From an uncultured Alphaproteobacteria bacterium (lineage in GTDB: Bacteria > Pseudomonadota > Alphaproteobacteria > RF32 > CAG-239), in assembly GCA_949297145.1 (NCBI GenBank), contig CASFQO010000001.1, forward strand, positions 1 through 64,000: a stretch of 64,000 nt of DNA, in the 5' to 3' direction. The position numbers and the translations under genes are program-made. Shown in pieces: positions 44,056-45,210 of this stretch. Numbering within the stretch: position 1 is the stretch's first letter; each line of letters opens with the position of its first letter. Below the pieces are notes generated by a model that saw only the letters and a list, made by a program, of their open reading frames with translations, searched no databases and was not told the origin of the DNA.

Positions 44056-45210
44056 ATGAAAAAGTTTTGCTGTATCATACTCTGCGCCATACTTTGGTCA
44101 AATAGCGCTTGGGCTATGCAAATTTTTATAAAAACGTTAACCGGAAAACACATCACTTTAGAAGTTGAGCCCACAGACCGCATAGAAGATGTAAAAGCAA
44201 AAATTAAAAATAAGGAAGATGTCCCAGAGGAAAAACAACAACTCATATTTGCAGGAAAAGTGCTAGAAGATGGAAATACGCTGCAAGACTACAGTATAAT
44301 AAAAGATTCCACGCTTCATTTAGTTCTTAAAAAAGAAACTCCGGATCCCATAAATATTAATGCAACGAACGTTGTTATCCAAAATGCATCCATTTTATAT
44401 AATAATATAGCGGCAAGAACAACCGGAGGCATCAACACCTATAGCGGTGGTGAACAAATAGATATAAAAAATAACTCTTCCCTATGGGTTAATACGATTG
44501 CAGCCCATAATCAGTATCAAGATGCTACGACGTCAGGATTGACAATGGGATATGAAAAACGCTTGCAAAAGTATAAGTTCGGATTAGGGTATAGTTACTT
44601 ACGAAATGATGATATAGAGGGGATATTAACCTCAGCAGATGCAAATACGCATAGCGGGTTCATATATGGTGAATATAAACCTAATGCTTGGTACACAAAT
44701 GCTATATTATCGTATGGGCATACGCGATTTGATGAAGAGAATGGTTCAAAATATAATTTCCAAACCATCGGCGCGCAGGTGATGAGCGGTTATGAAATAG
44801 GATACTTGACACCGGAAATTGGAATGAGATATTTGCATATCTGGAGCAATAATTACCACAATGCGCAATATGTCACAATTAAGGGGCAAGATGAAAATAT
44901 CTTGACCGGTATTATGGGCATCAAAGCTGCAAAAGAATGTCAAATAAATGAAAAATATACGCTAGTTCCGCAAGTAAAACTGTCAGGATTATATGATTTT
45001 TCTTCATCACAAAGATATTTATGGGGAACACAATATAGTATTCCTATACAGTTAGAGCAAAAGCGCTTATCACGATTTGCAACAGAAATTAATGTTGGCG
45101 TAGAGTTAAAAGAGCAAGAAAGTTGGAAAACCTACTTAGGCTATTATGGACAACTGAGAAATAATGCCGATATGCATGCGGTTATGCTGAATTTCCAATA
45201 CAATTTATAA
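44056..45210 (+). CDS. Ubiquitin fused to an autotransporter beta-barrel (surface-displayed ubiquitin)
   Basis: 384 aa. Residues 1-20 are a signal peptide ending AWA, so cleavage would leave Met21, the first residue of a ubiquitin: [19 protein letters not shown], then [20 protein letters not shown] and [20 protein letters not shown]. By hand, about 52 of the first 71 residues equal human ubiquitin. All seven lysines (6, 11, 27, 29, 33, 48, 63) and Leu8, Ile44, His68 and Val70 are kept. RLRGG is replaced by KKETP, so conjugation through the C-terminus is impossible. A Gly/Asn/Ser-rich linker (about 95-150) leads to an autotransporter barrel (about 150-384, [20 protein letters not shown]). No other passenger is present. 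AGGGGG precedes the ATG. Codon use is AT-rich like its neighbours, so any transfer from a eukaryote is not recent. Function unknown; host mimicry is inference. Confidence 0.9.

Follow-up and report, generated by a model that had tools for sequence, protein, structure and literature searches.

Here we describe a bacterial gene in which ubiquitin is joined in frame to an autotransporter beta-barrel. It lies in a 64,000-nucleotide stretch of DNA (the window), positions 1 to 64,000 of contig CASFQO010000001.1 from an uncultured Alphaproteobacteria bacterium, where an open reading frame with an ATG start occupies 44056..45210 of the forward strand and encodes 384 amino acids before a stop codon at 45208..45210. 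All parts given below are on that strand. The chain begins with a signal peptide (residues 1-20, 44056..44115), called from the sequence and the structural model alone (helix at residues 2-14) with no dedicated signal-peptide predictor; relatives have the same layout. The residues A-W-A stand directly ahead of the first methionine of ubiquitin and make a fitting cleavage site (AWA, then M). The ubiquitin domain (residues 21-92, 44116..44331) begins at that Met1 and runs into a flexible linker (residues 93-102, 44332..44361), with a predicted local distance difference test score (pLDDT) below 50 at residues 93-99, that occupies most of the position of the RLRGG tail and replaces it. There follow a helix at residues 103-119 (44362..44412), probably the pore helix, and an autotransporter beta-barrel of 12 strands (residues 141-384, 44476..45207).

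The Pfam ubiquitin profile (PF00240) matches residues 23-93 with 85.8 bits (E 1.7e-24, cut-off 25.4 bits), the Pfam Autotransporter profile (PF03797) matches residues 149-363 with 86.4 bits (E 3.5e-24, cut-off 26 bits), and a sequence search of the PDB aligns residues 20-92 with ubiquitin. Chance resemblance is ruled out by the two profile scores. An AlphaFold model places the ubiquitin fold at residues 21-91 and the barrel at 141-382; it superposes on ubiquitin at 0.6 Å over 74 residues, the domain thus having a beta-grasp fold, and structure comparison matches it to the translocators of EstA and NalP. Twelve long strands over residues 141-382 together with the helix at 103-119 give the barrel with pore helix of the type Va autotransporters, as seen in a predicted model rather than a solved structure, and the helix is placed inside the pore because of the match to EstA and NalP, whose aligned range includes it. 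The profile scan and the model found ubiquitin as the only passenger domain, so signal peptide, passenger and C-terminal PF03797 barrel stand in the type Va order within a single chain. An earlier note on this DNA, made from the letters alone, had proposed just this succession of signal peptide, ubiquitin at the cleavage site, linker and barrel; reading frame, profile scores, PDB search and model all agree with it, and the model supplies both of the folds on which the claim depended.

Aligned with human ubiquitin, the domain is identical at 52 of 72 residues, which upholds the hand count of 52 out of 71 in that note. It was also correct that all seven lysines and L8, I44 and V70 are kept (H68 is kept as well) and that RLRGG is missing: the domain differs from the human protein at R42 (R42Q), at R72 (R72K) and in the tail, where ubiquitin positions 72-76 read KKETP. 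The RLRGG or diglycine end of a conjugable modifier is therefore absent, and its loss excludes ordinary conjugation of this ubiquitin through its own C-terminus. The pore helix carries Asn116-Asn117; among nine aligned alphaproteobacterial proteins the Asn116 column is kept in 8 of 9, while the second column varies between N, S, G and V. Self-cleavage of the serine protease autotransporters of Enterobacteriaceae (SPATE) involves an Asn-Asn pair in the pore helix and a catalytic Asp of the barrel. An asparagine lies at the SPATE cleavage site, as described in the available part of PMC3153244, and by analogy a self-cleavage in the pore helix may release the ubiquitin.

The window genome (G000; G and L numbers denote our genomes and loci) comprises 1.41 Mb in 16 contigs, is 86.95% complete and holds a single ubiquitin, PF00240 matching it once. 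Within its family, 7 of 153 genomes carry ubiquitin (6 of 109 among those of good quality), in two of 16 genera. Six of the seven carriers have intact, open-frame fusions to the barrel in separate assemblies, and for that reason the assembly chimera, which the earlier note had named as a possible undoing of its claim, is ruled out. Separately, the frame in G001 (L005/L018, L011:9815-10120) breaks just after ubiquitin to leave a 101-residue protein of signal peptide plus ubiquitin and a separate barrel frame, which is either a real change or an assembly error. The gene is under purifying selection: non-synonymous divergence (dN) is lower than synonymous divergence (dS), both in ubiquitin and in the remainder, in each of the five gene pairs that gave finite values, dS being saturated in two further, more distant pairs compared over ubiquitin only. 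Between L019 and L022, dN is 0.036 and dS 0.846 in ubiquitin, and 0.114 and 1.117 in the remainder; between the window gene and L016, ubiquitin has one non-synonymous and four synonymous differences, and the remainder has a dN of 0.007 and a dS of 0.195.

We set 14 genes of the window against eleven related loci, which differ in length, and found no conserved partner gene or operon. Flanking gene order is common only to the near twin G017 (L010, L016), and the sole other neighbourhood match is a gene further down, at 36%, to L019. Promoter-like sites at the locus (9, against 6.9 in shuffled sequence) and terminator-like sites (0, against 0.8) are uninformative. The profile of the ubiquitin-conjugating enzyme E2 (PF00179) has no match in the window genome, an absence that is not established because no control genome gave a match either. 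The same genome also encodes a longer, conventional autotransporter (L002, on contig C7) whose barrel is 29-32% identical to that of the window protein and which is possibly a relative of the barrel's source.

Two kinds of known protein meet in this chain. The first is BfUbb, the secreted ubiquitin of Bacteroides fragilis, which according to the accessible passages of PMC3352274 and PMC5705921 also has a signal peptide followed by ubiquitin from Met1, has lost its C-terminal glycines and occurs in only some strains. The window protein shares the signal peptide set directly before ubiquitin and the lack of a C-terminal diglycine; BfUbb is free and soluble, whereas the window ubiquitin is fused in frame to an outer-membrane barrel, a comparison made by description and not by sequence. 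The second is the type Va autotransporter, represented by NalP, EstA and EspP, with which it has in common the signal peptide, passenger, linker helix, 12-stranded PF03797/TIGR01414 barrel and structural match, and from which it differs in having a passenger made up of just one ubiquitin, about 72 residues long. From eukaryotic ubiquitin, whose fold, lysines and most residues it keeps, it departs in the missing RLRGG, in R42Q and R72K, and in being predicted to be exported and anchored. The title of a 2011 paper calls the B. fragilis ubiquitin gene "unique" (PMC3352274), the discussion of a 2017 paper places B. fragilis among the few bacteria having a eukaryotic-like ubiquitin (PMC5705921), the sections available of both papers describe no anchored form, and a review of autotransporters from 2022 nowhere uses the word "ubiquitin" in its main text (PMC9289746). 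The matches listed in the open-access literature included no anchored bacterial ubiquitin and only the free, secreted BfUbb, which is weak evidence of novelty since subscription papers lay mostly outside that search.

The surprise lies in the wider class, in which bacteria have apparently exported and anchored ubiquitin many times. We scanned one genome per species for 84,980 species, using as queries the ubiquitins of seven family members and as search patterns MQIF[VI]KTL and GKHITLEV, and obtained 284 relatives at E <= 1e-3; counts out of 80 refer to the best 80 of these 284, nearest to the query. A signal-peptide-like stretch lies ahead of ubiquitin in 72 of the 80 by our own simple hydropathy rule. 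Five of the eight misses begin at or beside Met1 (L062, L070, L076, L082, L092), L068 has no signal-like stretch, L046 has a hydrophobic stretch that, in the frame read, lacks any basic residue, and the signal-like stretch of L026 lies further upstream. L062, L070, L082 and L092 are labelled actinobacterial, have no signal peptide, and their C-terminal parts cluster together; L076, with its 76 residues, consists of ubiquitin alone and could be a eukaryotic contaminant. A cleavage-type motif, [AVSTGC]x[AGSC], immediately precedes ubiquitin in 69 of the 76 proteins, the window protein included, that have at least three residues before it (L081 begins at Gln2).

What follows ubiquitin is far less uniform. 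Among 81 proteins, at E <= 1e-3, the downstream domains are Autotransporter in 19 (one of these matches, L025, being below the curated cut-off), SLH in 4, IPTL-CTERM in 4, CBM_X2 in 9 and Flg_new_2 in 8, and a sortase-like tail, by a pattern of our own, ends 12 of the 80; a sortase-protein match in L026 (Frisingicoccus caecimuris) is below cut-off. The further ubiquitin-autotransporter fusions that the earlier note had suggested looking for are thus at hand, as one part of a larger class with many anchors. Although L017, L019 and L067 have no Pfam barrel match, L017 and L022 exceed the TIGR01414 cut-off, and the C-terminal parts of L017, L019 and L022 align with that of the window protein. Clustering of 78 C-terminal parts (threshold E 1e-5 across 80 residues; six parts no longer than 60 residues were excluded, and the conventional autotransporter L002 was among the 78) gave 10 clusters and 24 singletons, and the fused barrels themselves form several groups, with L053/L078/L091, L060/L066 and L063/L067, for example, separate from the window's. 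Ubiquitin with a putative export signal recurs across bacteria with differing anchors, namely barrel, sortase-like tail, S-layer and IPTL-CTERM. Beside these stands L059 (Dyella sp. OK004), in which ubiquitin follows a signal-peptide-like leader, carries no anchor and ends in RLRGG.

Within this class, 33 of the 86 rows of a phylogenetic tree (L096 being a copy of L017) carry a histidine at ubiquitin position 12, by which we define the H type. Besides H12 these rows have S20T (33), R54N (32), S57Q (33), N60S (31), E64D (32) and N25D (26), and they form one side of a branch with support 99/91. The H clade joins Alphaproteobacteria with barrels, Bacillota with wall-type tails, a Mycoplasmatota bin and a Nomurabacteria bin, while the other rows, drawn from many phyla, lie nearer the human protein. 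As the tree rests on 72 columns, which include those that mark the clade, with 59 of its 82 inner branches open and a bootstrap not fully settled, conclusions are drawn from the H clade only. Across phyla the H protein is conserved while its DNA has drifted: between L022 (Alphaproteobacteria) and L021 (Clostridia), ubiquitin is identical at 95.8% of its residues but at 75.5% of its bases. Neither RLR nor diglycine occurs in the tail of any of 30 H rows checked of the 33, compared with RLRGG in 7 of 50 others.

The residues that the H rows hold fixed suggest where a partner might bind. From the Ile44 patch, L8 (33/33), G47 (32/33) and H68 (31/33) are conserved, and the human residue is kept at R42 in 9, at Q49 in 10 and at V70 in 16 of the 33. 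Counted as tree changes per site, the set of residues 51-64 has 1.82, the Ile44 set 6.50, the set 37-41 9.20 and the Phe4 set 0.67, the conservation of the Phe4 set and of positions 1-17 being biased or circular because the search patterns and the H12 definition cover them; His12 likewise, as the defining residue, does not count as evidence for a face. The sets follow general ubiquitin biology and were chosen with the per-position counts already in view. The Ile44 set and residues 51-64 do not differ significantly (p = 0.11), a pooled set does (p = 0.006), and non-H rows have no contrast (p = 0.45 and 0.85). A putative binding face of the H clade at residues 51-64 and their neighbours, rather than at the Ile44 patch, is accordingly a tentative proposal that we would not yet put at even odds.

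Carriers are scattered. A class sample has the gene in 5 of 385 genomes, one Bacilli order has matches in 10 of 288, and another group in 2 of 43, the centre genome being counted in each of the last two. Nine loci in eight genomes of the Bacilli order are readable; each of them carries a hydrophobic leader ahead of ubiquitin and ends in what, by eye, is a sortase-like tail, two are of H type, and identity to the window ubiquitin falls to 43%. Of the remaining two genomes, one has a match interrupted by stop codons and the other only a marginal match. Seven Bacilli loci (L118-L123, L126) hold diverged ubiquitins, at 68% to 43% identity, still between leader and sortase-like tail, with two copies in G619. 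Plasmids yielded two matches among 72,556 records, one on a Pseudoalteromonas plasmid at 41% and one on pRUMAL01 of Ruminococcus albus 7 (L106, 2923-3663), a plasmid typed mobilizable, where a signal-peptide ubiquitin protein annotated merely as "ubiquitin family protein" has a dockerin protein nearby. Contigs labelled viral gave seven loci, none with His12; L100-L102 consist of signal peptide, ubiquitin and a membrane-type tail, and L104 and L105 are longer proteins, the phage origin of all these contigs being putative.

Computation established the order of the domains, their folds, the missing tail, the purifying selection and the recurrence with different anchors. We propose, with a probability of roughly 0.6, that the window protein is a type Va autotransporter reduced to a minimum, with ubiquitin as its entire passenger, presented at the surface as a non-covalent, protein-binding ligand and anchored anew in each lineage; export and surface exposure by themselves are very probable. 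The Sec pathway would export the protein, signal peptidase would free Met1 of ubiquitin, the barrel would insert into the outer membrane, and ubiquitin would be passed outward to rest at the barrel mouth, held by linker and pore helix, as a compact, stable ligand and not a conjugated tag; many bacteria would have acquired ubiquitin, each lineage fusing it to its own surface anchor. Most Bacillota have no outer membrane, and one ubiquitin clade with wall-type tails in Bacillota favours a function outside the cell that is tied to ubiquitin and not to the barrel. Several points weigh against our proposal: a domain that folds fast might obstruct its own passage through the barrel; the gene is rare (7/153, 5/385, 10/288 and 2/43); conservation of L8, G47 and H68 leaves room for classical ubiquitin readers; and the face contrast is weak (p = 0.11 simple, 0.006 pooled) with sets chosen post hoc.

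Other readings share parts of this evidence. The displayed ubiquitin could be an interbacterial weapon that antagonises neighbouring bacteria as free BfUbb does, on contact or after cleavage in the pore helix; we think this unlikely, though worth keeping in view. Secreted BfUbb inhibits other B. fragilis strains, by the available text of PMC5705921, and sensitivity to it hinges on one residue of a peptidyl-prolyl isomerase (Jiang et al., as told in the accessible part of PMC12396204). The patchy distribution of the gene and the SPATE-like asparagine kept in 8 of 9 pore helices fit such a role, but the second asparagine is not conserved, the loci compared have no conserved partner gene, and the anchors of many relatives would hold the domain on its producer.

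We give a similarly low chance to host mimicry, the interpretation favoured by the earlier note, in which displayed ubiquitin would modulate immunity and engage either the ubiquitin enzymes of the host or a receptor for extracellular ubiquitin, for example CXCR4. The window protein does keep the seven lysines, L8, I44 and V70, and several carriers come from gut or rumen by record name (Goat_Cecum, Sheep_Rectum, Goat_Rectum, Water_buffalos_Rumen), the gut source of the Alphaproteobacteria being an assumption that the record titles do not state. Excerpts of the literature report immune effects of extracellular ubiquitin, with the role of CXCR4 disputed (PMC10892293), and inhibition of ubiquitination in vitro by BfUbb (PMC3352274). 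The anchored protein would nevertheless sit outside, while host conjugation enzymes are cytosolic, and R42, Q49 and V70 vary among H rows. Against mimicry as a general rule, non-H relatives occur, for example, in Leeia oryzae, Conexibacter, Methylolobus aquaticus and Pseudomonas protegens, names that do not point to an animal host, and some carriers have names indicative of soil, plants or water. What stands of the earlier interpretation is the passenger on a barrel and the lack of conjugation by its own tail, here and in the 30 H rows checked; that host enzymes would ubiquitinate the domain or be decoyed by it, or that it modulates immunity, is conjectural.

Less probable again is that ubiquitin has no specific partner and serves surface proteins only as a robust N-terminal cap, stabilising or protecting that end of the chain. 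Ubiquitin is highly stable, and the downstream parts are mostly unrelated to one another, yet T20, N54, Q57, S60 and D64, all outside the search patterns, are nearly fixed in H rows across phyla at the counts given above, and in the window protein ubiquitin is the only passenger domain found. Last, although ubiquitin folds fast and the linker is short in the model, there is only a slight chance that ubiquitin stays in the periplasm as the N-terminal domain of an outer-membrane barrel.

Returning to the displayed ligand, we tentatively suggest, at less than even odds, that these genes represent a surface-ubiquitin module, thinly but widely spread, that may have moved between phyla and been re-anchored in each recipient by a barrel, a sortase-like tail, an S-layer domain or an exosortase-type tail. 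It would be an extracellular ligand so far overlooked in bacteria, several of which are of animal-gut origin, and would bind through a separate face and not through the Ile44 patch that serves inside eukaryotic cells. Ubiquitin is usually taught as an intracellular tag of eukaryotes. If the proposal is true, a lasting, multi-phylum set of surface-anchored ubiquitins would amount to a second, extracellular career for ubiquitin in bacteria, and the question of its purpose would be directly testable, because the barrel-borne domain can be compared with its wall-anchored counterpart.
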